Shown: one piece after another, positions 1 through 64,000 of the stretch
Position numbering within the stretch: the stretch's first letter is position 1
Layout: every line of letters begins with the position of its first letter
Assembly (NCBI GenBank): GCA_964036665.1
Contig: OZ038526.1
Location: forward strand, 16,244,001-16,308,000
DNA length: 64,000 nt
Direction: 5' to 3'
Source: Gordius sp. MW1
Taxonomy: Eukaryota; Nematomorpha; Gordioida; Gordea; Gordiidae
Notes under the pieces: model-generated
Seen by the model: the letters and a program-made list of their open reading frames with translations, nothing else
Database searches by the model: none
Told to the model about the DNA's origin: nothing
Translations under genes and position numbers: made by a program

Positions 1-251
1 AAATTTTTCACATATTTTTCTTTGAACCGTATATTCATCCGATGAAAGTTGTCGTTTTCAGACGTGGTTTCTATAATCCCAAGTAAAAATTTATCAGAAT
101 CTAAAAACTATTACTTTAAAATCATGATCGCATAGAGCAGTTTTCAAAAATAAAGCACCCACGTTGCGATACAACAAACTAATCGCAACAATAAAACGTT
201 GTCTTTTGTCAAAATGATAGTTCTCGCAGCTTAAAACCTCTTTTCGGATGT

Positions 252-3020
252 CAATCGAGGATAATAGGATTCTCAAATTGGCTTACTTTTATATATTTTT
301 TCATGCTCTTTCACATAGAATCGAAAAAAATAAATATTTTTACCTCAAAATTTTTCACATATTTTTCTTTGAACCGTATTCATCCGATGAAAGTTGTCGT
401 TTTCAGATGTGGTTTCTATGATCCCAAGTAAAAATTTATCAGAATCTAAAAACTATTACTTTGAAATCATGATCGCATAGAGCAGTTTTCAAAAATTAAG
501 CACCCACGTTGCGATACAACAAACTAATCGCAACAATAAAACGTTGTCTTTTGTCAAAATGATAGTTCTCGCAGCTTAAAACCTCTTTTCGGATGTCAAT
601 CGAGGATAATAGGATTCTCAAATTGGCTTACTTTTATATATTTTTTCATGCTCTTTCACATAGAATCGAAAAAAATAAATATTTTTACCTCAAAATTTTT
701 CACATATTTTTCTTTGAACCGTATTCATCCGATGAAAGTTGTCGTTTTCAGACGTGGTTTCTATGATCCCAAGTAAAAATTTATCAGAATCTAAAAACTA
801 TTACTTTGAAATCGTGATCGCATAAAGCAGTTTTCAAAAATTAAGCAATCAAGTTGCGATACAACAAACTAATCGCAACAATAAAACGTTGTCTTTTGTC
901 AAAATGATAGTTCTCGCAGCTTAAAACCTCTTTTCGGAAGTCAATCGAGGATAATAGGATTCTCAAATTGGCTTACTTTTATATATTTTTCCATGCTCTT
1001 TCACATAGAATCGAAAAAAATAAAAAAATTTACGTCAAAATTTTTCACATATTTTTTGAACCGTATTCATCCGATGAAAGTTGTCGTTTTCAGACGTGGT
1101 TTCAATGATCCCAAGTAAAAATTTATCAGAATCTAAAAACTATTACTTTGAAATCATGATCGCATAGAGCAGTTTTCAAAAATTAAGCACTCACGTTGCG
1201 ATATAACAAACTAATCGCAACAATAAAACGTTGTCTTTTGTCAAAATGATAGTTCTCGCAGCTTAAAACCTCTTTTCGGAAGTCAATCGAGGATTATAGG
1301 ATTCTCAAATTGGCTTACTTTTATATATTTTTTCATGCTCTTTCACATAGAATCGAAAAAAATAAAAAATTTTACCTCAAAAATTTTCACATATTTTTCT
1401 TTGAACCGTATTCATCCGATGAAAGTTGTCGTTTTCAGACGTGGTTTCTATGATCCCAAGTAAAAATTTATCAGAATTTAAAAACTATTACTTTGAAATT
1501 ATGATCGCATAGAGCAGTTTTCAAAAATTAAGCACCCACGTTGCGATACAACAAACTAATCGCAACAATAAAACGTTGTCTTTTGTCAAAATGATAGTTC
1601 TCGCAGCTTAAAACCTCTTTTCGGAAGTCAATCGAGGATAATAGGATTCTCAAATTGGCTTACTTTTATATATTTTTTCATGCTCTTTCACATAGAATCG
1701 AAAAAAATAAATATTTTTACCTCAAAATTTTTCACATATTTTTCTTTGAACCGTATTCATCCGATGAAAGTTGTCGTTTTCAGATGTGGTTTCTATGATC
1801 CCAAGTAAAAATTTATCAGAATCTAAAAACTATTACTTTGAAATCATGATCGCATAGAGCAGTTTTCAAAAATTAAGCACCCACGTTGCGATACAACAAA
1901 CTAATCGCAACAATAAAACGTTGTCTTTTGTAAAAATGATAGTTCTCGCAGCTTAAAACCTCTTTTCGGATGTCAATCGAGGATAATAGGATTCTCAAAT
2001 TGGCTTACTTTTATATATTTTTTCATGCTCTTTCACATAGAATCGAAAAAAATAAATATTTTTACCTCAAAATTTTTCACATATTTTTCTTTGAACCGTA
2101 TTCATCCGATGAAAGTTGTCGTTTTCAGACGTGGTTTCTATGATCCCAAGTAAAAATTTATCAGAATCTAAAAACTATTACTTTGAAATCGTGATCGCAT
2201 AAAGCAGTTTTCAAAAATTAAGCAATCAAGTTGCGATACAACAAACTAATCGCAACAATAAAACGTTGTCTTTTGTCAAAATGATAGTTCTCGCAGCTTA
2301 AAACCTCTTTTCGGAAGTCAATCGAGGATAATAGGATTCTCAAATTGGCTTACTTTTATATATTTTTCCATGCTCTTTCACATAGAATCGAAAAAAATAA
2401 AAAAATTTACGTCAAAATTTTTCACATATTTTTTGAACCGTATTCATCCGATGAAAGTTGTCGTTTTCAGACGTGGTTTTAATGATCCCAAGTAAAAATT
2501 TATCAGAATCTAAAAACTATTACTTTGAAATCATGATCGCATAGAGCAGTTTTCAAAAATTAAGCACTCACGTTGCGATATAACAAACTAATCGCAACAA
2601 TAAAACGTTGTCTTTTGTCAAAATGATAGTTCTCGCAGCTTAAAACCTCTTTTCGGAAGTCAATCGAGGATAATAGGATTCTCAAATTGGCTTACTTTTA
2701 TATATTTTTTCATGCTCTTTCACATAGAATCGAAAAAAATAAAAAATTTTACCTCAAAAATTTTCACATATTTTTCTTTGAACCGTATTCATCCGATGAA
2801 AGTTGTCGTTTTCAGACGTGGTTTCTATGATCCCAAGTAAAAATTTATCAGAATTTAAAAACTATTACTTTGAAATTATGATCGCATAGAGCAGTTTTCA
2901 AAAATTAAGCACCCACGTTGCGATACAACAAACTAATCGCAACAATAAAACGTTGTCTTTTGTCAAAATGATAGTTCTCGCAGCTTAAAACCTCTTTTCG
3001 GAAGTCAATCGAGGATAATA
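252..3020 (+). repeat. 4-mer HOR, 1377-bp period, two copies
   Basis: Positions 252-1628 and 1629-3005 are near-identical blocks of four monomers. Shared marks at a constant 1377-bp shift include CAGATGTGG (404 and 1781) and ATCGTGATCGCATAAAG (811 and 2188), as well as TTTACGTC and GATATAAC. I saw about three differences: GTC/GTA near 551/1928, TTTCAATG/TTTTAATG near 1101/2478, and GGATTATAGG/GGATAATAGG near 1291/2668. Resemblance stops near 252 (GGATGTC against GGAAGTC) and after about 3020. Confidence 0.85.
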
Positions 3021-4031
3021 GAATTCTCAAATTGGCTTACTTTTATATATTTTTTCATGCTCTTTCACATAGAATCGAAAAAAATAAATATTTTTACCTC
3101 AAAAATTTTCATATATTTTTCTTTGAACCGTATTCATCCGATGAAAGTTGTCGTTTTCAGACGTGGTTTCTATGATTCCAATTAAAAATTTATCAGAATC
3201 TAAAAACTATTACTTTGAAATCATGATCGCATAGAGCAGTTTTCAAAAATTAAGCACTCACGTTGCGTTACAACAAACTAATCGCAACAATAAAACGTTG
3301 TCTTTTGTCAAAATGATAGTTCTCGCAGCTTAAAACCTCTTTTCGGAAGTAAATCGAGGATAATAGGATTCTCAAATTGGCTTACTTTTATATATTTTTT
3401 CATGCTCTTTCACATAGAATCGGAAAAATAAATATTTTTACCTCAAAATTTTTCACATATTTTGAACTGTATTCATCCGATGAAAGTTGTCGTTTTCAGA
3501 CGTGGTTTCTATGATCCCAAGTAAAAATTTATCAGAATCTAAAACTATTACTTTGAAATCATGATCGCATAGAGCAGTTTTCAAAAATTAAGCACACACG
3601 TTGCGATACAACAAACTAATCGCAACAATAAAACGTTGTCTTTTGTCAAAATGATAGTTCTCGCAGCTTAAAACCTCTTTTCGGAAGTAAATCGAGGATA
3701 ATAGGATTCTCAAATTGGCTTACTTTTATATATTTTTTCATGCTCTTTCACATAGAATCGGAAAAATAAATATTTTTACCTCAAAATTTTTCACATATTT
3801 TTCTTTGAACCGTATTCATCCGATGAAAGTTGTCGTTTTCAGACGTGGTTTCTATGATCCCTAGTAAAAATTTATCAGAATCTAAAAACTATTACTTTGA
3901 AATCATGATCGCATAGAGCAGTTTTCAAAAATAAAGCAATCACGTTGCGATCCAACAAACTAATCGCAACAATAAAACGTTGTCTTTTGTCAAAATGATA
4001 GTTCTCGCAGCTTAACCTCTTTTCGGAAGTC
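3020..4031 (+). repeat. Mixed A monomers, with an adjacent near-duplicate pair
   Basis: About three ordinary monomers. GGAAGTAAATCGAGG followed by AATCGGAAAAATAAAT appears in two neighbours (near 3343 and 3684), so one copy was duplicated recently. The same GTAAATC plus CGGAAAAATAAAT type recurs near 7812, 10556, 24652 and 28432. No gene is visible. Confidence 0.7.
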
Positions 4032-5344: not shown

Positions 5345-7252
5345 CAATAAAACGTTGTCTTTTGTCAAAATGATAGTTCTCGCAGCTTAAAACCTCTTTT
5401 CGGAAGTCAATCGAGGATAATAGGATTCTCAAATTGGCTTACTTTTATATATTTTTTCATGCTCTTTCACATAGAATCGAAAAAAATAAATATTTTTACC
5501 TCAAAATTTTTCACATATTTTTCTTTGAACCGTATATTCATCCGATGAAAGTTGTCGTTTTCAGAAGTGGTTTCTATGATCCCAAGTAAAAATTTATCAG
5601 AATTTAAAAACTATTACTTTGAAATCATGATCGCATAGAGCAGTTTTCAAAAATAAAGCACTCACGTTGCGATACAACAAACTAATCGCAACAATAAAAC
5701 GTTGTCTTTTGTCAAAATGATAGTTCTCGCAGCTTAAAACCTCTTTTCGGAAGTCAATCGAGGATAATAGGATTCTCAAATTGGCTTACTTTTATATATT
5801 TTTTCATGCTCTTTCACATAGAATCGAAAAAATAAATATTTTTACCTCAAAATTTTTCACATATTTTTCTTTGAACCGATGAATCATCCGATGAAAGTTG
5901 TCGTTTTCAGACGTGGTTTCTATGATCCCAAGTAAAAATTTATCAGAATTTAAAAACTATTACTTTGAAATCATGATCGCATAGAGCAGTTTTCAAAAAT
6001 AAAGCACTCACGTTGCGATACAACAAACTAATCGCAACAATAAAACGTTGTCTTTTGTCAAAATGATAGTTCTCGCAGATTAAAACCTCTTTTCGGAAGT
6101 CAATCGAGGATAATAGGATTCCCAAATTGGCTTACTTATATATATTTTTTCATGCTCTTTTACATAGAATCGAAAAAAATAAAAAATTTTACCTCAAAAT
6201 TTTTCACATAATTTCTTTGAACCTTATTCATTCGATGAAAGTTGTCGTTTTCAGACGTGGTTGATCCCTAGTAAAAATTTATCAGAATTTAAAAACTATT
6301 ACTTTGAAATCATGATCGCATAGAGCAGTTTTCAAAAATTAAGCACTCACGTTGCGATACAACAAACTAATCGCAACAATAAAACGTTGTCTTTTGTCAA
6401 AATGATAGTTCTCGCAGCTTAAAACCTCTTTTCGGAAGTCAATCGAGGATAAAAGGATTCTCAAATTGGCTTACTTTTATATATTTTTTCATGCTCTTTC
6501 ACATAGAATCGAAAAAAATAAAAAATTTTACCTCAAAAATTTTCACATATTTTTCTTTGAACCGTATTCATCCGATGAAAGTTGTCGTTTTCAGACGTGG
6601 TTTCTATGATCCCAAGTAAAAATTTATCAGAATCTAAAAACTATTACTTTGAAATCATGATCGCATAGAGCAGTTTTCAAAAATTAAGCAATCAAGTTGC
6701 GATACAACAAACTAATCGCAACAATAAAACGTTGTCTTTTGTCAAAATGATAGTTCTCGCAGCTTAAAACCTCTTTTCGGAAGTCAATCGAGGATAATAG
6801 GATTCTCAAATTGGCTTACTTTTATATATTTTTTCATGCTCTTTCACATAGAATCGAAAAAAATAAATATTTTTACCTCAAAATTTTTCACATATTTTTC
6901 TTTGAACCGTATATTCATCCGATGAAAGTTGTCGTTTTCAGAAGTGGTTTCTATGATCCCAAGTAAAAATTTATCAGAATTTAAAAACTATTACTTTGAA
7001 ATCATGATCGCATAGAGCAGTTTTCAAAAATAAAGCACTCACGTTGCGATACAACAAACTAATCGCAACAATAAAACGTTGTCTTTTGTCAAAATGATAG
7101 TTCTCGCAGCTTAAAACCTCTTTTCGGAAGTCAATCGAGGATAATAGGATTCTCAAATTGGCTTACTTTTATATATTTTTTCATGCTCTTTCACATAGAA
7201 TCGAAAAAATAAATATTTTTACCTCAAAATTTTTCACATATTTTTCTTTGAA
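5345..7252 (+). repeat. 4-mer-spaced duplication, 1377 bp apart (5345-5875 and 6722-7252)
   Basis: The two arms share GTATATTCATCC (two extra bases), GAAGTGGTTTC in place of GACGTGGTTTC, and AATAAAGCACTC. Between them lie monomers with CATTCGATG, GAACCTTATTC and a 5-bp deletion in GTGGTTGATCCC (6256). The GTATATTC form also occurs at 29, 7256, 8284 and 11028. Confidence 0.75.
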
Positions 7253-8810
7253 CCGTATATTCATCCGATGAAAGTTGTCGTTTTCAGACGTGGTTTCTAT
7301 GATCCCAAGTAAAAATTTATCAGAATTTAAAAACTATTACTTTGAAATCATGATCGCATAGAGCAGTTTTCAAAAATTAAGCACCCACGTTGCGATACAA
7401 CAAACTAATCGCAACAATAAAACGTTGTCTTTTGTCAAAATGATAGTTCTCGCAGCTTAAAACCTCTTTTCGGAAGTCAATCGAGGATAATAGGATTCTC
7501 AAATTTGCTTACTTTTATATATTTTTTCATGCTCTTTCACATAGAATCAAAAAAAAAAAAATTTACCTCAAAAATTTACACATATTTTTCTTTGAACGGT
7601 ATTCATCCGATGAAAGTTGTCGTTTTCAGACGTGGTTTCTATGATCCCAAGTAAAAATTTATCAGAATCTAAAAACTATTACTTTGAAATCATGATCGCA
7701 TAGAGCAGTTTTCAAAAATTACTCACGTTGCGATACAACAAACTAATCGCAACAATAAAACGTTGTCTTTTGTCAAAATGATAGTTCTCGCAGCTTAAAA
7801 CCTCTTTTCGGAAGTAAATCGAGGATAATAGGATTCTCAAATTGGCTTACTTTTATATATTTTTTCATGCTCTTTCACATAGAATCGGAAAAATAAATAT
7901 TTTTACCTCAAAATTTTTCACATATTTTTCTTTGAACCGTATTCATCCGATGAAAGTTGTCGTTTTCAGACGTGGTTTCTATGATCCCTAGTAAAAATTT
8001 ATCAGAATCTAAAAACTATTACTTTGAAATCATGATCGCATAGAGCAGTTTTCAAAAATAAAGCACTCACGTTGCGATACAACAAACTAATCGCAACAAT
8101 AAAACGTTGTCTTTTGTCAAAATGATAGTTCTCGCAGCTTAAAACCTCTTTTCGGAAGTCAATCGAGGATAATAGGATTCTCAAATTGGCTTACTTTTAT
8201 ATATTTTTTCATGCTCTTTCACATAGAATCGAAAAAATAAATATTTTTACCTCAAAATTTTTCACATATTTTTCTTTGAACCGTATATTCATCCGATGAA
8301 AGTTGTCGTTTTCAGACGTGGTTTCTATGATCCCAAGTAAAAATTTATCAGAATTTAAAAACTATTACTTTGAAATCATGATCGCATAGAGCAGTTTTCA
8401 AAAATTAAGCACCCACGTTGCGATACAACAAACTAATCGCAACAATAAAACGTTGTCTTTTGTCAAAATGATAGTTCTCGCAGCTTAAAACCTCTTTTCG
8501 GAAGTCAATCGAGGATAATAGGATTCTCAAATTGGCTTACTTTTATATATTTTTTCATGCTCTTTCACATAGAATCAAAAAAAAAAAAAAATTTACCTCA
8601 AAAATTTTCACATATTTTTCTTTGAACGGTATTCATCCGATGAAAGTTGTCGTTTTCAGACGTGGTTTCTATGATCCCAAGTAAAAATTTATCAGAATCT
8701 AAAAACTATTACTTTGAAATCATGATCGCATAGAGCAGTTTTCAAAAATTACTCACGTTGCGATACAACAAACTAATCGCAACAATAAAACGTTGTCTTT
8801 TGTCAAAATG
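6985..8810 (+). repeat. 3-mer duplication, 1028-1030 bp apart
   Basis: 6985-7780 and 8013-8810 share a long A run after AGAATC, GAACGGTATTC in place of GAACCG, and the short form AAAATTACTCACG (four bases missing). The shift grows from 1028 to 1030 because the second copy has two more A in the homopolymer. This duplication overlaps the start of the 2744-bp HOR, so the events are nested. Confidence 0.75.
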
Positions 8811-11800
8811 TTAGTTCTCGCAGATTAAAACCTCTTTTCGGAAGTCAATCGAGGATAATAGGATTCTCAAATTGGCTTACTTATATATATTTTTTCATGC
8901 TCTTTTACATAGAATCGAAAAAAATAAAAAAATTTTACCTCAAAATTTTTCACATAATTTCTTTGAACCGTATTCATTCGATGAAAGTTGTCGTTTTCAG
9001 ACGTGGTTTCTATGATCCCTAGTAAAAATTTATCAGAATTTAAAAACTATTACTTTGAAATCATGATCGCATAGAGCAGTTTTCAAAAATTAAGCACTCA
9101 CGTTGCGATACAACAAACTAATCGCAACAATAAAACGTTGTCTTTTGTCAAAATGATAGTTCTCGCAGCTTACAACCTCTTTTCGGAAGTCAATCGAGGA
9201 TAATAGGATTCTCAAATTGGCTTACTTTTATATATTTTTCCATGCTCTTTCACATAGAATCGAAAAAAATAAAAAATTTTACGTCAAAATTTTTCACATA
9301 TTTTTTGAACCGTATTCATCCGATGAAAGTTGTCGTTTTCAGACGTGGTTTCAATGATCCCAAGTAAAAATTTATCAGAATCTAAAAACTATTACTTTGA
9401 AATCATGATCGCATAGAGCAGTTTTCAAAAATAAAGCACTCACGTTGCGATACAACAAACTAATCGCAACAATAAAACGTTGTCTTTTGTCAAAATGATA
9501 GTTCTCGCAGCTTAAAACCTCTTTTCGGAAGTCAATCGAGGATAATAGGATTCTCAAATTGGCTTACTTTTATATATTTTTTCATGCTCTTTCACATAGA
9601 ATCGAAAAAATAAATATTTTTACCTCAAAATTTTTCACATATTTTTCTTTGAACCGTATTCATCCAATGAAAGTTGTCGTTTTCAGACGTGGTTTCTATG
9701 ATTCCAATTAAAAATTTATCAGAATCTAAAAACTATTACTTTGAAATCATGATCGCATAGAGCAGTTTTTAAAAATAAAGCACTCACGTTGCGATACAAC
9801 AAACTAATCGCAACAATAAAACGTTGTCTTTTGTCAAAATGATAGTTCTCGCAGCTTAAAACCTCTTTTCGGAAGTCAATCGAGGATAATAGGATTCTCA
9901 AATTGGCTTACTTTTATATATTTTTTCATGCTCTTTCACATAGAATCGAAAAAAATAAATATTTTTACCTCAAAAATTTTCACATATTTTTCTTTGAACC
10001 GTATTCATCCGATGAAAGTTGTCGTTTTCAGACGTGGTTTCTATGATCCCAAGTAAATTTTATCAGAATCTAAAAACTATCACTTTGAAATCATGATCGC
10101 ATAGAGCTTTTCAAAAATTAAGCACTCACGTTGCGATACAACAAACTAATCGCAACAATAAAACGTTGTCTTTTGTCAAAATGATAGTTCTCGCAGCTTA
10201 AAACCTCTTTTCGGAAGTCAATCGAGGATAATAGGATTCTCAAATTGGCTTACTTATATATATTTTTTCATGCTCTTTCACATAGAATCGAAAAAAATAA
10301 AAAATTTTACCTCAAAATATTTCACATATTTTTCTTTGAACCGTATTCATCCGATGAAAGTTGTCGTTTTCAGACGTGGTTTCTATGATCCCAAGTAAAA
10401 ATTTATCAGAATCTAAAAACTATTACTTTGAAATCATGATCGCATAGAGCAGTTTTCAAAAATTACTCACGTTGCGATACAACAAACTAATCGCAACAAT
10501 AAAACGTTGTCTTTTGTCAAAATGATAGTTCTCGCAGCTTAAAACCTCTTTTCGGAAGTAAATCGAGGATAATAGGATTCTCAAATTGGCTTACTTTTAT
10601 ATATTTTTTCATGCTCTTTCACATAGAATCGGAAAAATAAATATTTTTACCTCAAAATTTTTCACATATTTTTCTTTGAACCGTATTCATCCGATGAAAG
10701 TTGTCGTTTTCAGACGTGGTTTCTATGATCCCTAGTAAAAATTTATCAGAATCTAAAAACTATTACTTTGAAATCATGATCGCATAGAGCAGTTTTCAAA
10801 AATAAAGCACTCACGTTGCGATACAACAAACTAATCGCAACAATAAAACGTTGTCTTTTGTCAAAATGATAGTTCTCGCAGCTTAAAACCTCTTTTCGGA
10901 AGTCAATCGAGGATAATAGGATTCTCAAATTGGCTTACTTTTATATATTTTTTCATGCTCTTTCACATAGAATCGAAAAAATAAATATTTTTACCTCAAA
11001 ATTTTTCACATATTTTTCTTTGAACCGTATATTCATCCGATGAAAGTTGTCGTTTTCAGACGTGGTTTCTATGATCCCAAGTAAAAATTTATCAGAATTT
11101 AAAAACTATTACTTTGAAATCATGATCGCATAGAGCAGTTTTCAAAAATTAAGCACCCACGTTGCGATACAACAAACTAATCGCAACAATAAAACGTTGT
11201 CTTTTGTCAAAATGATAGTTCTCGCAGCTTAAAACCTCTTTTCGGAAGTCAATCGAGGATAATAGGATTCTCAAATTGGCTTACTTTTATATATTTTTTC
11301 ATGCTCTTTCACATAGAATCAAAAAAAAAAAAAAATTTACCTCAAAAATTTTCACATATTTTTCTTTGAACGGTATTCATCCGATGAAAGTTGTCGTTTT
11401 CAGACGTGGTTTCTATGATCCCAAGTAAAAATTTATCAGAATCTAAAAACTATTACTTTGAAATCATGATCGCATAGAGCAGTTTTCAAAAATTACTCAC
11501 GTTGCGATACAACAAACTAATCGCAACAATAAAACGTTGTCTTTTGTCAAAATGTTAGTTCTCGCAGATTAAAACCTCTTTTCGGAAGTCAATCGAGGAT
11601 AATAGGATTCTCAAATTGGCTTACTTATATATATTTTTTCATGCTCTTTTACATAGAATCGAAAAAAATAAAAAAATTTTACCTCAAAATTTTTCACATA
11701 ATTTCTTTGAACCGTATTCATTCGATGAAAGTTGTCGTTTTCAGACGTGGTTTCTATGATCCCTAGTAAAAATTTATCAGAATTTAAAAACTATTACTTT

Positions 11801-25670: not shown

Positions 25671-25752
25671 CTTTTCGGAAGTCAATCGAGGATAATAGGA
25701 TTCTCAAATTGGCTTACTTTTATATATTTTTTCATGCTCTTTCACATAGAAT

Positions 25753-41204: not shown

Positions 41205-41549
41205 TTCTTAAATTAGCTTACTTTTATATATTTTTTCATGCTCTTTCACATAGAATCGAAAAAAATAAAAAATTTTACCTCAAAATTTTTCACATATTTT
41301 TCTTTGAACCGTATTCATCCGATGAAAGTTGTCGTTTTCAGACGTGGTTTCTATGATCCCAAGTAAAAATTTATCAGAATTTAAAAACTATTACTTTGAA
41401 ATCATGATCGCATAGAGCAGTTTTCAAAAATTAAGCACTCACGTTGCGATACAACAAACTAATCGCAACAATAAAACGTTGTCTTTTGTCAAAATGATAG
41501 TTCTCGCAGCTTAAAACCTCTTTTCGGAAGTGAATCGAGGATAATAGGA

Positions 41550-51169: not shown

Positions 51170-51940
51170 GCTTACTTTTATATATTTTTTCAAGCTCTTT
51201 CACATAGAATATCAAAAAAAATGAGTATTTTTACCTCAAAATTTTTCATATTTTTTTCTTTCAACCGTATTCATCCGATGAAAGTTGTCGTTTTCAGACA
51301 CGATTTCCATGATAAAAAGTTAAAATTTAATAGAAACCAGATAACTATTACTTTGAAATCATGATCGCATAGAGCAGTTTTTAAAAATTAAGCCCTCACG
51401 TTGCGATACAACAAACTAATCGCAACAATAAAGCCTTGTCTTTTGTCAAAATCATAGTTCTCGCAGCTTAAAACTTCTTTTCCGAAGTCAATCGAGGATA
51501 ATAGATTCTCAAATTGGCTTACTTTTATATATTTTTTCAAGCTCTTTCACATAGAATAACAAAAAATAAATATTTTTACCTCAAAATTTTTCACATTTTT
51601 TTCTTTCAACCGTATTCATCCGATAAAAGTTGTCGTTTTCAGACACGATTTCCATGATAAAAAGTTAAAATATATCAGAATCAGAAAACTATTACTTTGA
51701 AATCATGATCGCATACAGCAGTTTTCAAAAAGTAAGCACTCACGTTGCGATACAACAAACTAATCGCAACAATAAAACCTTGTCTTTTGTCAAAATCATA
51801 GTTCTCGCAGCTTAAAACTTCTTTTCGGAAGTCAATCGAGGATACTAGGATTCTCAAATTGGCTTATTTATATATTTTTAAGCTCTTTCACATAGAATAA
51901 CAAAAAATAAATATTTTTACCTCAAAATTTTCACATATTT
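51170..51940 (+). repeat. B-type cluster 1 (two monomers)
   Basis: Two B bodies (GACACGATTTCC at 51297 and 51642). The first has TTTAATAGAAACCAG, AGCCCTCACG and AAAGCCTTGTC; the second CCGATAAAAG, AAAATATATCAG and CATACAGCAG. The pair recurs at 61476-62246, 10306 bp (30 monomers) away. After about 51915 the B leader (AATAACAAAAAATAAAT) runs into an A-type end (TTTGAACCGTATCC), a chimeric junction. Confidence 0.85.
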
Positions 51941-53140
51941 TTCTTTGAACCGTATCCATCCGATGAAAGTTGTCGTTTTCAGACGTGGTTTCTATGATCC
52001 CAAGTAAAAATTTATCAGAATTTAAAAACTATTACTTTGAAATCATGATCGCATATAGCAGTTTTCAAAAATTAAGCACTCACGTTGCGATACAACAAAC
52101 TAATCGCAACAATAAAACGTTGTCTTTTGTCAAAATGATAGTTCTCGCAGCTTAAAACCTCTTTTCGGAAGTCAATCGAGGATAATAGGATTCTCAAATT
52201 GGCTTACTTTTATATATTTTTTCATGCTCTTTCACATAGAATCGAAAAAAATAAATATTTTTACCTCAAAATTTTTCACATATTTTTCTTTCAACCGTAT
52301 TCATCCGATGAAAGTTGTCGTTTTCAGACGTGGTTTCTATGATCCCAAGTAAAAATTTATCAGAATCTAAAAACTATTACTTTGAAATCGTGATCGCATA
52401 GAGCAGTTTTCAAAAATTAAGCAATCAAGTTGCGATACAACAAAATAATCGCAACAATAAAACGTTGTCTTTTGTCAAAACGATAGTTCTCGCAGCTTAA
52501 AACCTCTTTTCGGAAGTCAATCGAGGATAATAGGATTCTCAAATTGGCTTACTTTTATATATTTTTTCATGCTCTTTCACATAGAATCGAAAAAAATAAA
52601 TATTTTTACCTCAAAATTTTTCACATATTTTTCTTTGAACCGTATTCATCCGATGAAAGTTGTCGTTTTCAGACGTGGTTTCTATGATCCCAAGTAAAAA
52701 TTTATCAAAATCTAAAAACTATTACTTTGAAATCATGATCGCATAGAGCAGTTTTCAAAAATTAAGCACTCACGTTGCGATACAACAAACTAATCGCAAC
52801 AATAAAACGTTGTCTTTTGTCAAAATGATAGTTCTCGCAGCTTAAAACCTCTTTTCGGAAGTCAATCGAGGATAATAGGATTCTCAAATTGGCTTACTTT
52901 TATATATTTTTTCATGCTCTTTCACATAGAATCGAAAAAAATAAATATTTTTACCTCAAAATTTTTCACATATTTTTCTTTGAACCGTATTCATCCGATG
53001 AAAGTTGTCGTTTTCAGACGTGGTTTCTATGATCCCAAGTAAAAATTTATCAGAAATTAAAAACTATTACTTTGAAATCATGATCGCATAGAGCAGTTTT
53101 CAAAAATAAAGCAATCAAGTTGCGATACAACAAACTAATC
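51940..53140 (+). repeat. A-type monomers between B clusters
   Basis: About three and a half ordinary monomers. One has ATCGTGATCG, AGCAATCAAG, ACAAAATAATCG and CAAAACGATAG (near 52388-52490), another TTATCAAAATC (52704) and another CAGAAATTAAAAAC. No gene is visible. Confidence 0.75.
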
Positions 53141-53670
53141 GCAACAATAAAGCCTTGTCTTTTGTCAAAATGATAGTTCTCGCAGCTTAAAACTTCTTTT
53201 CCGAAGTCAATCGAGGATAATAGGATTCTCGAATTGGCTTACTTTTATATATTTTTTCAAGCTCTTTCACATAGAATAACAAAAAATAAATATTTTTACC
53301 TCAAAATTTTTCACATTTTTTTCTTTCAACCGTATTCATCCGATAAAAGTTGTCGTTTTCAGACACGATTTCCATGATAAAAAGTTAAAATATATCAGAA
53401 TCAGAAAACTATTACTTTGAAATCATGATCGCATACAGCAGTTTTCAAAAAGTAAGCACTCACGTTGCGATACAACAAACTAATCGCAACAATAAAACCT
53501 TGTCTTTTGTCAAAATCATAGTTCTCGCAGCTTAAAACTTCTTTTCAGAAGTCAATCGAGGATACTAGGATTCTCAAATTGGCTTATTTATATATTTTTA
53601 AGCTCTTTCACATAGAATAACAAAAAATAAATATTTTTACCTCAAAATTTTCACATATTTTTCTTTGAAC
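53140..53670 (+). repeat. B-type cluster 2 (one full body and flanking pieces)
   Basis: It opens with AAAGCCTTGTC and CTTTTCCGAAG in an otherwise A monomer, then an AATAACAAAAAATAAAT leader, a B body at 53362, the short TTATTTATATATTTTTAAG form and the switch back to A. Confidence 0.8.
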
Positions 53671-53929
53671 CGTATTCATCCGATGAAAGTTGTCGTTTTC
53701 AGACGTGGTTTCTATGATCCCAAGTAAAAATTTATCAGAATTTAAAAACTATTACTTTGAAATCATGATCGCATAGAGCAGTTTTCAAAAATTAAGCACT
53801 CACGTTGCGATACAACAAACTAATCGCAACAATAAAACGTTGTCTTTTGTCAAAATGATAGTTCTCGCAGCTTAAAACCTCTTCGGAAGTCAATCGAGGA
53901 TAATAGGATTCTCAAATTGGCTTACTTTT

Positions 53930-54300
53930 ATATATTTTTTCAAGCTCTTTCACATAGAATAACAAAAAAAAATGAGTATTTTTACCTCAAAATTTTTCAT
54001 ACTTTTTTCTTTCAACCGTATTCATCCGATGAAAGTTGTCGTTTTCAGACACGATTTCCATGATAAAAAGTTAAAATTTAATAGAAACCAGAAAACTATT
54101 ACTTTGAAATCATGATCGCATAGAGCAGTTTTTAAAAATTAAGCCCTCACGTTGCGATACAACAAACTAATCGCAACAATAAAGCCTTGTCTTTTGTCAA
54201 AATGATAGTTCTCGCAGCTTACAAACTTCTTTTCCGAAGTCAATCGAGGATAATAGGATTCTCAAATTGGCTTACTTTTATATATTTTTTCAAGCTCTTT
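53930..54300 (+). repeat. B-type cluster 3 (one monomer)
   Basis: A single B monomer (GACACGATTTCC at 54048, TTTAATAGAAACCAG, AGCCCTCACG, AAAGCCTTGTC, CTTACAAACTTC). The monomers on both sides have A bodies but B-like AATAACAAAAAAAATGAG leaders with TTTCTTCTTTTTTTC (about 54345 and 54690), so it sits among chimeras. Confidence 0.8.
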
Positions 54301-54885
54301 CACATAGAATAACAAAAAAAATGAGTATTTTTACCTCAAAATTTTTCTTCTTTTTTTCTTTCAACCGTATTCATCCGATGAAAGTTGTCGTTTTCAGACG
54401 TGGTTTCTATGATCCCAAGTAAAAATTTATCAGAATCTAAAAACTATTACTTTGAAATCGTGATCGCATAGAGCAGTTTTCAAAAATTAAGCACTCACGT
54501 TGCGATACAACAAACTAATCGCAACAATAAAACGTTGTCTTTTGTCAAAATGATAGTTCTCGCAGCTTAAAACCTCTTCGGAAGTCAATCGAGGATAATA
54601 GGATTCTCAAATTGGCTTACTTTTATATATTTTTTCAAGCTCTTTCACATAGAATAACAAAAAAAATGAGTATTTTTACCTCAAAATTTTTCTTCTTTTT
54701 TTCTTTCAACCGTATTGATCCAATGAAAGTTGTCGTTTTCAGACGTGGTTTCTATGATCCCAAGTAAAAATTTATCAGAATCTAAAAACTATTACTTTGA
54801 AATCATGATCGCATAGAGCAGTTTTCAAAAATTAAGCACTCACGTAGCGATACAACAAACTAATCGCAACAAAAAAGCCTTGTCT
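54300..54885 (+). repeat. Chimeric E-type monomers between B clusters 3 and 4
   Basis: Two monomers combine AATAACAAAAAAAATGAG leaders with A-type GACGTGGTTTC bodies. The first has ATCGTGATCG and lost three bases in CCTCTTCGGAAG; the second has TTGATCCAATG and ACGTAGCGATAC, which changes one base in the inverted repeat. Confidence 0.75.
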
Positions 54886-56510
54886 TTTGTCAAAATCATA
54901 GTTCTTGCAGCTTAAAACTTCTTTTCGGAAGTCAATCGAGGATACTAGGATTCTCAAATTGGCTTATTTATATATTTTTAAGCTCTTTCACATAGAATAA
55001 CAAAAAATAAATATTTTTACCTCAAAATTTTTCACATTTTTTTCTTTCAACCGTATTCATCCGATAAAAGTTGTCCCTTTTAGACACGATTTCCATGATA
55101 AAAAGTTAAAATTTGTCAGAATGAGAAATTTGAAATCATGATCGTATAGAGAAAAATTAAGCACTCACGTTGCGATACAACAAACTAATCGCAACAATAA
55201 AACCTTTTCTTTTGTCAAAATGATAGTTCTAGCAGCTTAAAACTTCTTTTCCGAAGTCAATCGAGGATAATAGGATTCCCAAATTGGCTTACTTTTATAT
55301 ATTTTTTTAAGCTCTTACACATAGAATACAAAAAATAAATATTTTTACCTCAAAATTTTTCACATTTTTTTCTTTCAACCGTATTGATCCGATGAAAGTT
55401 GTCGTTTTCAGATACGATTTTGATGATAAAAAGTTAAAATTTATCAGAATAAGAAAACTATTACTTTGAAATCATGATCGCATAGAGCAGTTTTCAAAAA
55501 TGAAGCACTCACGTTGCTATACAACAAACTAATCGCAACAATAAAACCTTGTCTTTTGTCAAAATGATAGTTCTCGCAGCTTGAAACTTCTTTTCCGAAG
55601 TCAATCGAGGATAATAGGATTCCCAAATTGGCTTACTTTTATATATTATTTCAAGCTCTTTCACATAGAATAACAAAAAATAAATATTTTTACCTCAAAA
55701 TTTTTCACATTTTTTTCTTTCAACCGTATTCATCCGATGAAAGTTGTCGTTTTCAGATACGATTTTGATGATAAAAAGTTAAAATTTATCAGAATAAGAA
55801 AACTATTACTTTGAAATCATGATCGCATAGAGCAGTTTTCAAAAATGAAGCACTCACGTTGCTATACAACAAACTAATCGCAACAATAAAACCTTGTCTT
55901 TTGTCAAAATGATAGTTCTCGCAGCTTAAAACTTCTTTTCCGAAGTCAATCGAGGATACTAGGATTCTCAAATTGGCTTATTTATATATTTTTAAGCTCT
56001 TTCTCATAGAATAACAAAAAATAAATATTTTTACCTCAAAATTTTTCACATTTTTTTCTTTCAACCGTATTCATCCGATAAAAGTTGTCGTTTTTAGACA
56101 CGATTTCCATGATAAAAAGTTAAAATTTGTCAGAATCAGAAAACTATTACTTTGAAATCATGATCGCATAGAGCAGTTTTCAAAAATTAAGCACTCACGT
56201 TGCGATACAACAAACTAATCGCAACAATAAAACCTTTTCTTTTGTCAAAATGATAGTTCTAGCAGCTTAAAACTTCTTTTCCGAAGTCAATCGAGGATAA
56301 TAGGATTCCCAAATTGGCTTACTTTTATATATTTTTTTAAGCTCTTACACATAGAATACAAAAAATAAATATTTTTACCTCAAAATTTTTCACATTTTTT
56401 TCTTTCAACCGTATATATGATGAAAGTTGTCGTTTTCAGACACGATTTCCATGATAAAAAGTTAAAATTTATCAGAGACATAATATTATTACTTTGAAAT
56501 CATGATCGCA
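54885..56510 (+). repeat. B-type cluster 4 (five monomers of types P, Q and S)
   Basis: Three sub-types recur. P: TTATTTATATATTTTTAAG leader, CCGATAAAAG, TTTGTCAGAAT. Q: CTCTTACACATAGAATAC leader, ATCAGAGACATAATATTATT. S: TATATTATTTCAAGC leader, GATACGATTTTGATG, CAGAATAAGAAAAC, AAATGAAGC and GTTGCTATAC. The order is P, a Q leader on an S body, S, P, Q. The first P monomer has two 8-bp deletions (near 55127 and 55152). TTCTAGCAG marks two monomers (55228, 56258). Confidence 0.82.
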
Positions 56511-59500
56511 TAGAGCAGTTTTCAAAAATTAAGCACTCACGTTGCGATACAACAAACTAATCGCAACAATAAAACGTTGTCTTTTGTCAAAATGATAGTT
56601 CTCGCAGCTTAAAACCTCTTTTCGGAAGTCAATCGAGGATAATAGGATTCTCAAATTGGCTTACTTTTATATATTTTTTCATGCTCTTTCACATAGAATC
56701 GAAAAATGCAAAAAAAATTTTACCTCAAAATTTTTCACATATTTTTCTTTGAACCGTATTCATCCGATGAAAGTTGTCGTTTTCAGACGTGGTTTCTATG
56801 ATCCCAAGTAAAAATTTATCAGAATCTAAAAACTATTACTTTGAAATCATGATCGCATAGAGCAGTTTTCAAAAATTAAGCACTCACGTTGCGATACAAC
56901 AAAATATTCGCAACAATAAAACGTTGTCTTTTGTCAAAATGATAGTTCTCGCAGCTTAAAACCTCTTTTCGGAAGTCAATCGAGGATAATAGGATTCTCA
57001 AATTAGCTTACTTTTATATATTTTTTCATGCTCTTTCACATAAAATCGAAAAAAATAAAAAAATTTACCTCAAAATTTTTCACATATTTTTCTTTGAACC
57101 GTATTCATCCGATGAAAGTTGTCGTTTTCAGACGTGGTTTCTATGATCCCAAGTAAAAATTTATCAGAATTTAAAAACTATTACTTTGAAATCATGATCG
57201 CATAGAGCAGTTTTCAAAAATTAAGCACTCACGTTGCGATACAACAAACTAATCGCAACAATAAAACGTTGTCTTTTGTCAAAATGATAGTTCTCGCAGC
57301 TTAAAACCTCTTTTCGGAAGTCAATCGAGGATAATAGGATTCTCAAATTGGCTTACTTTTATATATTTTTTCAAGCTCTTTCACATAGAATAACAAAAAA
57401 AATGAGTATTTTTACCTCAAAATTTTTCATATTTTTTTCTTTCAACCGTATTGATCCGATGAAAGTTGTCGTTTTCAGACGTGGTTTCTATGATCCCAAG
57501 TAAAAATTTATAAGAATCTAAAAACTGATCGCATAGAGCAGTTTTCAAAAATTAAGCACTCACGTTGCGATAACACAAACTAATCGCAACAATAAAACGT
57601 TGTCTTTTGTCAAAATGATAGTTCTCGCAGCTTAAAACCTCTTTTCGGAAGTCAATCGAGGATAATAGGATTCTCAAATTGGCTTACTTTTAAATATTTT
57701 TTCATGCTCTTTCACATAGAATCGAAAAAAATAAAAAATTTTACCTCAAAATTTTTCACATATTTTTCTTTGAACTGTATTCATCCGATGAAAGTTGTCG
57801 TTTTCAGACGTGGTTTCTATGATCCCAAGTAAAAATTTATCAGAATTTAAAAACTATTACTTTGAAATCATGATCGCATAGAGGAGTTTTCAAAAATTAA
57901 GCACTCACGTTGCGATACAACAAACTAATCGCAACAATAAAACGTTGTCTTTTGTCAAAATGATAGTTCTCGCAGCTTAAAACCTCTTTTCGGAAGTGAA
58001 TCGAGGATAATAGGATTCTCAAATTGGCTTACTTTTATATATTTTTTCATGCTCTTTCACATAGAATCGAAAAAAATAAAAAATTTTACCTCAAAATTTT
58101 TCACATATTTTTCTTTGAACCGTATTCATCCGATGAAAGTTGTCGTTTTCAGACATGGTTTCTATGATCCCAAGTAAAAATTTATCAGAATCTAAAAACT
58201 ATTACTTTGAAATCATGATCGCATAGAGCAGTTTTCAAAAATTAAGCACTCACGTTGCGATACAACAAACTAATCGCAACAATAAATCCTTGTCTTTTGT
58301 CAAAATGATAGTTCTCGCAGCTTAAAACCTCTATTCGGAAGTCAATCGAAGATAATAGGATTCTCAAATTGGCTTACTTTTATATATTTTTTCAAGCTCT
58401 TTCACATAGAATAACAAAAAATAAATATTTTTACCTCAAAATTTTTCACATTTTTTTCTTTCAACCGTATTGATCCGATGAAAGTTGTCGTTTTCAGACG
58501 TGGTTTCTATGATCCCAAGTAAAAAATTATCAGAATCTAAAAACTATTACTTTGAAATCATGATCGCATAGAGCAGTTTTCAAAAATTAAGCACTCACGT
58601 TGCGATACAACAAACTAATCGCAACAATAAAGCCTTGTCTTTTGTCAAAATGATAGTTCTCGCAGCTTAAAACCTCTATTCGGAAGTCAATCGAGGATAA
58701 TAAGATTCTCAAATTGGCTTACTTTTATATATTTATTCATGCTCTTTCACATAGAATCGAAAAAAATAAATATTTTTACCTCAAAATTTTTCACATATTT
58801 TTCTTTGAACCGTATTCATCCGATGAAAGTTGTCGTTTTCAGACGTGGTTTCTATGATCCCAAGTAAAAATTTATCAGAATCTAAAAACTATTACTTTGA
58901 AATCGTGATCGCATAGAGCAGTTTTCAAAAATTAAGCAATCAAGTTGCGATACAACAAACTAATCGTAACAATAAAACGTTGTCTTTTGTCAAAATGATA
59001 GTTCTCGCAGCTTAAAACCTCTTTTCGGAAGTCAATCGAGGATAATAGGATTCTCAAATTGGCTTACTTTTATATATTTTTTCATGCTCTTTCACATAGA
59101 ATCGAAAAAAATAAATATTTTTACCTCAAAATTTTTCACATATTTTTCTTTGAACCGTATTCATCCGATGAAAGTTGTCGTTTTCAGACGTGGTTTCTAT
59201 GATCCCAAGTAAAAATTTATCAGAATCTAAAAACTATTACTTTGAAATCATGATCGCATAGAGCAGTTTTCAAAAATTAAGCACTCACGTTGCGATACAA
59301 CAAACTAATCGCAACAATAAAACGTTGTCTTTTGTCAAAATGATAGTTCTCGCAGCTTAAAACCTCTTTTCGGAAGTCAATCGAGGATAATAGGATTCTC
59401 AAATTGGCTTACTTTTATATATTATTTCATGCTCTTTCACATAGAATCGAAAAAAATAAAAAATTTTACCTCAAAATTTTTCACATATTTTTCTTTGAAC

Positions 59501-61490
59501 CGTATTCATCCGATGAAAGTTGTCGTTTTCAGACGTGGTTTCTATGATCCCAAGTAAAAATTTATCAGAATCTAAAAACTATTACTTTAAAATCGTGATC
59601 GCATAGAGCAGTTTTCAAAAATTAAGCAATCAAGTTGCGATACAACAAACTAATCGCAACAATAAAACGTTGTCTTTTGTCAAAATGATAGTTCTCGCAG
59701 CTTAAAACCTCTTTTCGGAAGTCAATCGAGGATAATAGGATTCTCAAATTGGCTTACTTTTATATATTATTTCATGCTCTTTCACATAGAATCGAAAAAA
59801 ATAAAAAATTTTACCTCAAAATTTTTCACATATTTTTCTTTGAACCGTATTCATCCGATGAAAGTTGTCGTTTTCAGACGTGGTTTCTATGATCCCAAGT
59901 AAAAATTTATCAGAATTTAAAAACTATTACTTTTAAATCATGATCGCATAGAGCAGTTTTCAAAAATTAAGCAATCAAGTTGCGATACAACAAACTAATC
60001 GCAACAATAAAACGTTGTCTTTTGTCAAAATGATAGTTCTCGCAGCTTAAAACCTCTTTTCGGAAGTCAATCGAGGATAATAGGATTCTCAAATTGGCTT
60101 ACTTTTATATATTATTTCATGCTCTTTCACATAGAATCGAAAAAAATAAAAAATTTTACCTCAAAATTTTTCACATATTTTTCTTTGAACCGTATTCATC
60201 CGATGAAAGTTGTCGTTTTCAGACGTGGTTTCTATGATCCCAAGTAAAAATTTATCAGAATCTAAAAACTATTACTTTGAAATCGTGATCGCATAGAGCA
60301 GTTTTCAAAAATTAAGCAATCAAGTTGCGATACAACAAACTAATCGCAACAATAAAACGTTGTCTTTTGTCAAAATGATAGTTCTCGCAGCTTAAAACCT
60401 CTTTTCGGAAGTCAATCGAGGATAATAGGATTCTCAAATTGGCTTACTTTTATATATTTTTTCATGCTCTTTCACATAGAATCGAAAAAATAAAAAATTT
60501 TACCTCAAAATTTTTCACATATTTTTCTTTGAACCGTATTCATCCGATGAAAGTTGTCGTTTTCAGACGTGGTTTCTATGATCCCAAGTAAAAATTTATC
60601 AGAATTTAAAAACTATTACTTTGAAATCATGATCGCATAGAGCAGTTTTCAAAAATTAAGCACTCACGTTGCGATACAACAAACTAATCGCAACAATAAA
60701 ACGTTGTCTTTTGTCAAAATGATAGTTCTCGCAGCTTAAAACCTCTTTTCGGAAGTCAATCGAGGATAATAGGATTCTCAAATTGGCTTACTTTTATATA
60801 TTTTTTCATGCTCTTTCACATAGAATCGAAAAAAATAAATATTTTTACCTCAAAATTTTTCACATATTTTTCTTTGAACCGTATTCATCCGATGAAAGTT
60901 GTCGTTTTCAGACGTGGTTTCTATGATCATAAGTAAAAATTTATCAGAATCTAAAAACTATTACTTTGAAATCATGATCGCATAGAGCAGTTTTCAAAAA
61001 TTAAGCAATCAAGTTGCGATACAACAAACTAATCGCAACAATAAAACGTTGTCTTTTGTCAAAATGATAGTTCTCGCAGCTTAAAACCTCTTTTCGGAAG
61101 TCAATCGAGGATAATAGGATTCTCAAATTAGCTTACTTTTATATATTTTTTCATGCTCTTTCACATAGAATCGAAAAAAATATAAAATTTTACCTCAAAA
61201 TTTTTCACATATTTTTCTTTGAACCGTATTCATCCGATGAAAGTTGTCGTTTTCAGACGTGGTTTCTATGATCCCAAGTAAAAATTTATCAGAATTTAAA
61301 AACTATTACTTTGAAATCATGATCGCATAGAGCAGTTTTCAAAAATTAAGCACTCACGTTGCGATACAACAAACTAATCGCAACAATAAAACGTTGTCTT
61401 TTGTCAAAATGATAGTTCTCGCAGCTTAAAACCTCTTTTCGGAAGTCAATCGAGGATAATAGGATTCTCAAATTGGCTTACTTTTATATA
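56510..61490 (+). repeat. Mostly A-type monomers; E chimeras and a 690-bp dimer repeat
   Basis: About 14 monomers. E-type chimeras lie at about 57375 and 58412. One copy has a 16-bp deletion at 57526/57527 and GATAACACAAAC for GATACAACAAAC. F-like ATAGAGGAG with AGTGAATCG recurs near 57880-57996. TATATTATTTCATGC occurs in three neighbours exactly 345 bp apart (59417, 59762, 60107), and AATCGTGATC at 59591 and 60281 (690 bp) shows a two-monomer repeat. No gene is visible. Confidence 0.78.
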
Positions 61491-64000
61491 TTTTTTCAAG
61501 CTCTTTCACATAGAATAACAAAAAAAATGAGTATTTTTACCTCAAAATTTTTCATATTTTTTTCTTTCAACCGTATTCATCCGATGAAAGTTGTCGTTTT
61601 CAGACACGATTTCCATGATAAAAAGTTAAAATTTAATAGAAACCAGAAAACTATTACTTTGAAATCATGATCGCATAGAGCTGTTTTTAAAAATTAAGCC
61701 CTCACGTTGCGATACAACAAACTAATCGCAACAATAAAGCCTTGTCTTTTGTCAAAATGATAGTTCTCGCAGCTTAAAACTTCTTTTCCGAAGTCAATCG
61801 AAGATAATAGGATTCTCAAATTGGCTTACTTTTATATATTTTTTCAAGCTCTTTCACATAGAATAACAAAAAATAAATATTTTTACCTCAAAATTTTTCA
61901 CATTTTTTTCTTTCAACCGTATTCATCCGATAAAAGTTGTCGTTTTCAGACACGATTTCCATGATAAAAAGTTAAAATATATCAGAATCAGAAAACTATT
62001 ACTTTGAAATCATGATCGCATGCAGCAGTTTTCAAAAATTAAGCACTCACGTTGCGATACAACAAACTAATCGCAACAATAAAACCTTGTCTTTTGTCAA
62101 AATCATAGTTCTCGCAGCTTAAAACTTCTTTTCGGAAGTCAATCGAGGATACTAGGATTCTCAAATTGGCTTATTTATATATTTTTAAGCTCTTTCACAT
62201 AGAATAACAAAAAATAAATATTTTTACCTCAAAATTTTTCACATTTTTTTCTTTCAACAGTATTCATCCGATAAAAGTTGTCCTTTTAGACACGATTTCC
62301 ATGATAAAAAGTTAAAATTTGTCAGAATGAGAAAATTATTACTTTGAAATCATGATCGCATAGAGCAGTTTTCAAAAATTAAGCACTCACGTTGCGATAC
62401 AACAAACTAATCGCAACAATAAAACCTTTTCTTTTGTCAAAATGATAGTTCTAGCAGCTTAAAACTTCTTTTCCGAAGTCAATCGAGGATAATAGGATTC
62501 CCAAATTGGCTTACTTTTATATATTTTTTTAAGCTCTTACACATAGAATACAAAAAATAAATATTTTTACCTCAAAATTTTTCACATTTTTTTCTTTCAA
62601 CCGTATTGATCCGATGAAAGTTGTCGTTTTCAGACACGATTTCCATGATAAAAAGTTAAAATTTATCAGAGACATAATATTATTACTTTGAAATCATGAT
62701 CGCATAGAGCAGTTTTCAAAAATTAAGCACTCACGTTGCGATACAACAAACTAATCGCAACAATAAAACCTTGTCTTTTGTCAAAATGATAGTTCTCGCA
62801 GCTTTAAACTTCTTTTCCGAAGTCAATCGAGGATAATAGGATTCTCAAATTGGCTTACTTTTATATATTATTTCAAGCTCTTTCACATAGAATAACAAAA
62901 AATAAATATTTTTACCTCAAAATTTTCCACATTTTTTTCTTTCAACCGTATTCATCCGATGAAAGTTGTCGTTTTCAGATACGATTTTGATGATAAAAAG
63001 TTAAAATTTATCAGAATAAGAAAACTATTACTTTGAAATCATGATCGCATAGAGCAGTTTTCAAAAATGAAGCACTCACGTTGCTATACAACAAACTAAT
63101 CGCAACAATAAAACCTTGTCTTTTGTCAAAATGATAGTTCTCGCAGCTTAAAACTTCTTATCCGAAGTCAATCGAGGATACTAGGATTCTCAAATTGGCT
63201 TATTTATATATTTTTAAGCTCTTTCTCATAGAATAACAAAAATAAATATTTTTACCTCAAAATTTTTCACATTATTTTCTTTCAACCGTATTCATCCGAT
63301 AAAAGTTGTCGTTTTTAGACACGATTTCCATGATAAAAAGTTAAAATTTGTCAGAATCAGAAAACTATTACTTTGAAATCATGATCGCATAGAGCAGTTT
63401 TCAAAAATTAAGCACTCACGTTGCTATACAACAAACTAATCGCAACAATAAAACCTTGTCTTTTGTCAAAATGATAGTTCTCGCAGCTTAAAACTTCTTT
63501 TCCGAAGTCAATCGAGGATACTAGGATTCTCAAATTGGCTTATTTATATATTTTTAAGCTCTTTCACATAGAATAACAAAAAATAAATATTTTTACCTCA
63601 AAATTTTTCACATTTTTTTCTTTCAACCGTATTGATCGGATGAAAGTTGTCGTTTTCAGACACGATATCCATGATAAAAAGTTAAAATTTATCAGAGACA
63701 TAATATTATTACTTTGAAATCATGATCGCATAAAGCAGTTTTCAAAAATTAAGCACTCACGTTGCGATACAACAAACTAATCGCAACAATAAAACCTTGT
63801 CTTTTGTCAAAATGATAGTTCTCGCAGCTTAAAACTTCTTTTCCGAAGTCAATCGAGGATAATAGTTCTCAAATTGGCTTACTTTTATATATTTTTTTAA
63901 GCTCTTTCACATAGAATAACAAAATGTAAATATTTTTACCTCAAAATTTTTCACATTTTTTTCTTTCAACCGTATTCATCCGATGAAAGTTGTCGTTTTC
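61490..64000 (+). repeat. B-type cluster 5 (seven monomers, runs off the window)
   Basis: Bodies at about 61605, 61951, 62291, 62635, 62980, 63320 and 63661. The first two copy 51170-51940. The rest reuse the P, Q and S types of cluster 4 in a different order: P, Q, S, P, then a P-leader on a Q body. Shifts against cluster 4 are 7206 bp (55085 to 62291) and 7221-7222 bp (55758 to 62980, 56099 to 63320), about 21 monomers. The last partial monomer at 63860-64000 has a B-type leader with TAACAAAATGTAAAT. Confidence 0.85.
61918..62258 (+). repeat. Representative diverged (B-type) monomer, 341 bp
   Basis: This copy aligns with the A monomer over its whole length but carries a fixed set of differences: GACACGATTTCC for GACGTGGTTTC, ATGATAAAAAGTTAAAAT for ATGATCCCAAGTAAAAAT, CAGAAAACTATT for CTAAAAACTATT, AACCTTGTC for AACGTTGTC, CTTATTTATATATTTTTAAG for the usual TTACTTTTATATATTTTTTC, and AATAACAAAAAATAAAT with a TTTCAACCG end in place of AATCGAAAA and TTTGAACCG. 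The core with the inverted repeat is unchanged. Sixteen bodies of this group occur, at about 51299, 51644, 53364, 54050, 55085, 55413, 55758, 56099, 56441, 61605, 61951, 62291, 62635, 62980, 63320 and 63661. Confidence 0.9.

Follow-up and report, generated by a model that had tools for sequence, protein, structure and literature searches.

A 64,000-nucleotide stretch of the genome of Gordius sp. MW1 (assembly GCA_964036665.1, contig OZ038526.1; hereafter the window, C8:16244001-16308000, with C4, C5 and C7 denoting other contigs of the same 211.8-Mb, 12-contig assembly) consists entirely of a satellite with a 345-bp unit. We conclude, at a probability of roughly 0.85, that in-register exchange in this mostly monomeric, (peri)centromere-like array yields tandem duplications of a few monomers. 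The array carries duplicated blocks of several sizes that are in register, local and partly nested, as well as hybrids between two monomer subfamilies, A and B; the mechanism behind them would be unequal exchange or re-replication.

Using Tandem Repeats Finder (TRF), the whole window was recognised as one head-to-tail array with a unit of 345 bp, 186.2 copies and a 95% match. A 28-base conserved anchor is present at 186 positions and delimits 185 complete monomers, all of which were analysed, i.e. no interval in the window was omitted. The anchor-to-anchor spacing is 315-350 bp for all 185 monomers and exactly 345 bp in 97 of them. The monomers differ by a mean of 14.9 changes in pairwise comparisons and neighbours differ by 12.0; 123 sequences are unique, while 26 classes comprise 2-5 identical copies. 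Duplicated blocks were mapped by base-level self-BLAST, with pieces of at least 600 bp and at least 99% identity:

1-64000, + strand: 345-bp satellite array, from TRF and anchor spacing; subfamily A to ~51 kb; continues past both window ends.
124-3176, + strand: 4-monomer tandem duplication, period 1377 bp, 2.22 copies, 99.46% identity.
6912-8589, + strand: duplication with a 3-monomer offset (1028 bp), 650-bp copies at 6912-7561 and 7940-8589.
7579-13209, + strand: 8-monomer tandem duplication, period 2744 bp, 2.05 copies, 99.93%.
14774-19397, + strand: 5-monomer tandem duplication, period 1717 bp, 2.69 copies, 99.83%.
22159-24396, + strand: 3-monomer tandem duplication, period 1033 bp, 2.17 copies, 99.42%.
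23200-30510 (approximate), + strand: 11-monomer tandem duplication, period 3774-3779 bp, ~1.9 copies; 99.9% identity in the right half and 99.35% in the left.
29228-33363, + strand: 6-monomer tandem duplication, period 2067 bp, 2.00 copies, 99.66%; overlaps the tail of the 11-monomer duplication.
35579-39997, + strand: 4-monomer duplication, period 1380 bp (2760 over two), ~3.2 copies, 99.6-99.9%.
39550-41757, + strand: partial 4-monomer duplication, weaker, period 1379 bp, 829 bp, 99.64%.
45374-48463, + strand: partial 5-monomer duplication, weaker, period 1725 bp, 1365 bp, 99.49%.

The copy number of blocks in the window is ~1.9-3.2 and the copies are 99.3-99.9% identical. The blocks are tandem duplications of two to three copies, and they are higher-order repeats (HORs) solely in a loose pairwise sense. 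A reading of the window made earlier from its letters (the sequence-only reading) had described blocks of 3, 4, 5, 6, 8 and 11 monomers; all of them were recovered by self-BLAST at the periods claimed for them, and beyond what a permuted monomer order yields. A diagonal scan of the monomer matrix gave a best score of 30, whereas none of 30 permuted monomer orders scored above 10. Using the pairwise-block definition of TRASH (blocks of at least 3 monomers with at most 5 variants per monomer pair) in our own reimplementation rather than TRASH itself, we found 30 block pairs at ≤5 differences (permuted mean 6.6, maximum 23; 100 permutations), and 13 pairs of at least 3 monomers at ≤3 differences (permuted mean 0.2, maximum 2; 100 permutations). 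At ≤5 differences, 114 of the 185 monomers belong to some block and 71 to none. Neither a classical human-type HOR array nor the single consistent HOR that would speak against the sequence-only reading is present in the window, where the commonest shortest period (4) covers just 26/185 monomers; for this comparison, the window was fully covered and the rest of the array was sampled only.

The blocks are in register and local. Because all periods are whole monomers and all 185 spacings are 315-350 bp, every duplication junction is in register. Such whole-monomer duplication with intact phase is expected from in-register unequal exchange and argues for homology-directed exchange rather than end joining. 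Block pairs lie within 15 monomers of each other in 26/30 cases at ≤5 differences (16% expected for uniform pairs) and in 11/13 cases at ≤3 differences, and window pieces that are at least 99% identical and more than 6 kb apart measure 941 bp at most. Moreover, 41 of 88 substitution variants, counted if present in 3-8 of 223 A-type monomers from the samples described below, occur in a single 10-kb sample, as opposed to 0.37 expected if they were scattered. In total, the short offsets and the locus-private variants point to local exchange.

Blocks overlap and nest. The segment 29475-30510, in which a 6-monomer repeat had been proposed to lie over the tail of the 11-monomer repeat, is indeed part of both, being 99.9% identical to the copy at +2067 and 99.6% identical to that at -3774. 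The proposed nesting of a 3-monomer repeat in the 8-monomer repeat at 7605-8810 holds in part: the right copy of the 1028-bp duplication lies inside the 8-monomer repeat, but the duplication comprises only 650 bp (6912-7561 versus 7940-8589), its left copy ends right before the 8-monomer repeat, and 7605-8810 is only 68% identical to the sequence at -1028 without gaps. The right copy is present again in the second copy of the 8-monomer repeat (10684-11333, 99.385% identical to 6912-7561) and, therefore, most simply, the 3-monomer event preceded the 8-monomer event. The two 8-monomer copies have 2 differences in 2887 bp. Ranked by how far their copies have diverged, the duplications run approximately as follows, youngest first: 8-monomer (0.07%), 5-monomer (0.17%), 6-monomer (0.34%), first 4-monomer (0.54%) and 22-kb 3-monomer (0.58%). 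Divergence is uneven along the 11-monomer duplication (1/1309 and 8/1233 bp) and the 4-monomer duplication at 35.6-40.0 kb (1/1283 to 6/1659 bp), and conversion could blur the order of block ages.

We propose that homologous exchange would occur in register between sister chromatids or nearby repeats, either as unequal exchange or as re-replication after a break, starting at a repeat behind the fork, and would generate tandem duplications of a few monomers, ~3-11 here. Block lengths would differ, overlap and nest because event lengths vary, and the blocks mapped in the window would stay at ~2-3 copies because few are amplified again. The common consensus would go back to one monomer that had spread more widely beforehand. 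Unequal exchange and break-induced replication, both of which are reviewed in PMC8997354, are indistinguishable in one assembled sequence. As a special case of this mechanism, fork collapse followed by break-induced replication could have made the blocks, with duplication favoured over deletion. This model was proposed for nested human HORs (PMC8997354) and the blocks here nest and overlap; on the other hand, a single assembled sequence cannot discriminate it from unequal exchange, and a simulation in which duplication and deletion are balanced already yields a similar mix of blocks, so that we hold the fork-collapse route to be possible rather than probable.

The simulation was neutral and started from a uniform array, with 6 substitutions per monomer and with duplications and deletions averaging 6 monomers, at a rate of 0.05 per monomer per substitution. 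These settings were hand-picked after a coarse grid (15 settings, 4 repeats), and the final run had 40 repeats. Simulated arrays contained 12.8 runs (5-95%: 5-22) with 9.3 periods (4-15), and the observed values are 13 runs and 8 periods. Because the number of runs and the variety of periods are reproduced under neutrality, a diversity of block lengths within one array does not require a special cause; because the settings were chosen by hand, the simulation addresses consistency only.

The right end of the window contains a subfamily border, which provides a further trace of exchange. Monomers were typed with 19 diagnostic columns that distinguish nine A-type samples from the samples L040 and L041 (16.4 and 16.6 Mb, B), and these columns were chosen on the very samples for which the B share was afterwards listed:

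51070-61723, + strand: border zone, an interleaved mix of A and B monomers and A/B hybrids, from the 19 diagnostic columns.
51070-52101, + strand: A-to-B hybrid, full B and B-to-A hybrid monomers, from the 19 columns and the list of nearest partners.
61724-64000, + strand: B subfamily, complete monomers classified to ~63.8 kb; continues past the window.

B letters are present at ≤12% of the diagnostic sites in 152 monomers, at 12-50% in 17 and at >50% in 16, three of which are A-to-B hybrids. The first mostly-B monomers are at 51.07 kb, and from 61.7 kb onwards every complete monomer is of this kind. An A-to-B hybrid, mosaic on its left and B thereafter, is present three times (51070, 53822 and 61376), and a B-to-A hybrid occurs at 51762 and 53482, with a single switch along the monomer. 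The nearest partners of the hybrids are concordant, i.e. monomers 148 and 156 pair with 178, 149 with 154, and 150 with 155, at 3-4 differences. Chimeric monomers as expected from in-register exchange are thus present, both as the 17/185 monomers with 12-50% B sites and as the three A-to-B hybrids. The recurrent hybrid junctions are as expected if duplications span the border, and the A/B hybrids indicate in-register exchange. A recurrent mosaic type, in which 4-5/19 sites carry B letters, is found in 13 monomers at 30.4-57.3 kb and could reflect exchange or an old shared polymorphism. Recent block runs number 13 in monomers 0-147, and there are none in the border monomers 148-184 (at least 3 monomers; ≤3 or ≤5 differences); recent block duplications end at the subfamily border. 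With one B monomer as the query, 128 matches were obtained, all on C8, and 48 of 48 full-length matches lie at C8 16295418-16790711 (in both cases, 40 of 3350 candidates were scored). Because of this confinement, B is a flank of this array as far as scored; against strict confinement, 5/27 monomers in the interior sample L034 have at least 20% B letters.

Beyond the window, we examined twenty 10-kb samples of C8 and one 10-kb sample of C5 (L046, C5:14018001-14028000). The 345-bp satellite is present in 11/20 C8 samples, on the + strand at 12.5, 13.0 and 13.5 Mb, on the - strand at 14.6, 14.9, 15.2 and 15.5 Mb, and again on the + strand at 15.8, 16.1, 16.4 and 16.6 Mb; the anchor was not found in the C8 samples at 10, 11, 12, 16.9, 17.2, 18 and 20 Mb (7/20). 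Inside the array region, L032 and L033 (C8 14.0 and 14.3 Mb) contain a 352/353-bp satellite that is ~67% identical to the 345-bp one, and the two samples have opposite orientations. The monomer counts omit L032, L033 and the seven anchorless samples, and 13 odd intervals in 7/12 sampled loci (a missed anchor, short insertions or other sequence) were omitted from the monomer set. Recent block runs are present in 7 of the 12 satellite samples (11 from C8, one from C5), amounting to 12 runs with 10 different periods (2, 4, 4, 5, 7, 7, 9, 10, 11, 19, 21 and 25 monomers), compared with ~0.65 runs expected over all 12 loci from permuted order (200 permutations per locus). A locus with only one or two runs carries little weight by itself, as in several loci the observed count is matched by the best permutation. 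The earlier claim that amplifications are local and varied in length agrees with these runs and with the short offsets in the window.

The blocks might also be an assembly artefact, i.e. false tandem duplications such as two haplotypes placed side by side. Their identity of 99.3-99.9% is in the range of alleles, and they are read from an assembly. We nevertheless regard this explanation as very improbable, given that each period is a whole number of monomers, that periods of 1.0-3.8 kb would be short relative to long reads, assuming that such reads were used, that the blocks overlap and nest, and that the pattern is found again in 7 of the 12 sampled loci.

Several observations weigh against the exchange that we favour, or against its sufficiency. 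Block copies are read from an assembly and might include assembly errors; 5/12 sampled loci have no recent block; and in the simulation, the nearest-neighbour distance is higher than observed (2.88 versus 2.0) and the share of short offsets lower (0.71 versus 0.85). Moreover, distance between window monomers is nearly flat to 80 monomers apart (12.3 to 13.9 changes), reaching 22.5 changes at the largest separations, where A meets B; such a near-flat decay of similarity is not the product of pure local exchange without a recent wider spread. Finally, longer-running periods were detected by TRF in L034 (1719 bp × 4.1), L040 (1722 bp × 5.8), L036 (1034 bp × 9.7), L038 (1376 bp × 7.3) and L030 (1035 bp × 8.3), at a 95-97% match, and some stretches of the array may therefore once have carried one repeated block. 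The window blocks could accordingly be read as fragments, of several derived lengths, of an older regular HOR array that has decayed, and the mean distance is lower at offset 5 in both L034 and L040, and at offset 10 in L034. There is, however, no common period beneath the window blocks, the A monomers are ~6 changes from the shared consensus, and the divergence between block copies is far below that of other monomer pairs; decay of a regular array is thus quite unlikely.

Local relatedness coexists with a wide consensus. The nearest relative of a window monomer is in the window for 174/185, tied for 7 and elsewhere for 4 (184 window monomers were tested against 300 others, which are samples only), and the own locus is more often nearest in 11/12 samples, L029 being the exception. 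The mean within-locus distance is 7.3-8.0 changes in L030, L031 and L037, the most uniform loci, which are interior; it is highest in the window (14.9), L034 (17.2, an interior exception) and L040 (18.8), and 9.2-12.2 in the others. In the eight loci tested out of 13, with L029, L034, L035, L040 and L041 left out, the local consensus equals the global one in six and is 2 changes off in L030 and in the window A monomers. The ratio of pairwise distance to distance from the consensus is 1.52-1.87, approaching the value of 2 for a star. The satellite is also present on C4, C5 and C7 (40 of 1943 candidates scored). Of the nine C8 samples that lie outside the B flank, eight are at a mean distance of 9.6-11.8 changes from the C5 sample; this distance is 15.2 to L034 and 14.0 to the window, and within the C5 sample the mean is 10.0 with self-pairs and 10.4 without. 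Four sites with anchors 39 bp apart in the C5 sample, plus a 377-bp match in the search that located the satellite on other contigs, suggest that some monomers on C5 contain a small internal duplication.

Because the consensus is shared across megabases and contigs, homogeneity is attributed to a process of wider reach, on which small duplications are superimposed. It appears that one monomer spread widely, that the copies then diverged and that small duplications were added later. The proposal in the sequence-only reading that the array is renewed by many small exchanges therefore goes too far, given that the C8 loci and C5 have a common consensus. Some long-range transfer is called for by this common consensus, as would be provided by amplified circles (rolling circle or extrachromosomal circular DNA) that are re-inserted, and satellite circles are reported in Tribolium freemani (PMC13081366). 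As a source of the blocks, circles are unlikely: the blocks adjoin their source at 2-3 copies, no exact monomer copy is shared between any two loci compared, and distant pieces at high identity in the window are short. More speculatively, turnover might act at two scales, in which a genome-wide process maintains one consensus across several chromosomes and small local duplications arise at a measurable rate but hardly ever come to dominate, which would keep chromosome-specific HORs from forming and leave the array edge (B) as the only chromosome-specific part; we consider this tentative and rather doubtful.

The GC content of the 345-bp array is ~30%. The most conserved part of the monomer is 99.6% conserved over 25 bases versus 97.3% overall (consensus index 327-353, wrapping). 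A perfect 8-bp dyad, GTTGCGAT-N11-ATCGCAAC, overlaps this part; with a spacer of 8-14, GTTGCGAT/ATCGCAAC occurs 173 times in the window, versus 186 anchors. The conserved dyad is possibly a binding site or a short dyad. As to the identity of the satellite, alpha satellite was ruled out by unit length (one unit of 345 bp by TRF versus a monomer of about 171 bp), window positions 1-4000, the part submitted to Rfam, gave no match, and among the papers listed by literature searches aimed at the satellite or host group, none was recognised as describing this satellite.

The array resembles several known systems. Like Arabidopsis CEN178, in which HORs are analysed as pairs of blocks (PMC10199239), it is long and monomeric with HORs that are pairs of multi-monomer blocks, 30 pairs here; unlike CEN178, it has a monomer of 345 bp rather than 178 bp and is known from its sequence rather than from CENH3 occupancy. 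Local homogenisation, divergent edge monomers and, in parts, mixed HOR lengths are shared with human alpha-satellite arrays (PMC8997354, PMC11062924). Unlike human alpha satellite, the window has no dominant many-copy HOR, the monomer is twice as long, and the samples, with one 10-kb sample from another contig, contain no chromosome-specific HOR. The contrast with well-known arrays dominated by one HOR length had been overstated, as human centromere 8 mixes 4-, 7-, 8- and 11-mer HORs in one layer (PMC8997354). For a Populus centromeric satellite, similarity is higher within chromosomes than between them (PMC12046899), unlike the array here. In the Drosophila ananassae subgroup (PMC11917152), arrays of up to 2 Mb, monomers of 99-411 bp and HOR structures are described, a likeness at the level of description. 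The Tribolium major and minor satellites (PMC13081366) likewise form a long, orientation-changing array region with a second, related satellite, here that of 352/353 bp, and the TCAST satellite of Tribolium is 361 bp (PMC10218199); the Tribolium macro-dyads are inverted subarrays of tens of kb, the orientation changes seen here are between samples hundreds of kb apart, and a macro-dyad organisation of this array is at most a possibility.

Elsewhere in the genome, two uninterrupted telomerase reverse transcriptase frames lie ~9 kb apart on C4 (L024 and L025, 9.709 and 9.719 Mb; 976 aa open). With 906 aa translated, the telomerase frame matched five PDB sequences at E ≤ 0.001, all of which are named telomerase reverse transcriptase and which we take to be human and fish. 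Tribolium castaneum, considered as a host for its 361- and 359-bp satellites, was set aside on this ground, as a T. castaneum structure exists in the PDB. TTAGG ×6 was not found, a weak negative since the search may skip simple repeats; its absence would fit an ichneumonoid wasp (PMC8977481), a host considered as a guess only. C2 has two tandem histone-family clusters, at 12.99-13.21 and 15.18-15.28 Mb, with units of ~5.2 and ~6.3 kb, and orientation switches twice in the first.

In total, this is ordinary satellite evolution, for which a new mechanism is not required. The array presents a clean case of unequal-exchange dynamics, with few-copy duplications of known sizes and relative ages and no HOR dominating the stretch seen, together with a mapped subfamily border at which recurring hybrid junctions mark exchange. 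As such, it could help to calibrate exchange models outside primates and Arabidopsis.

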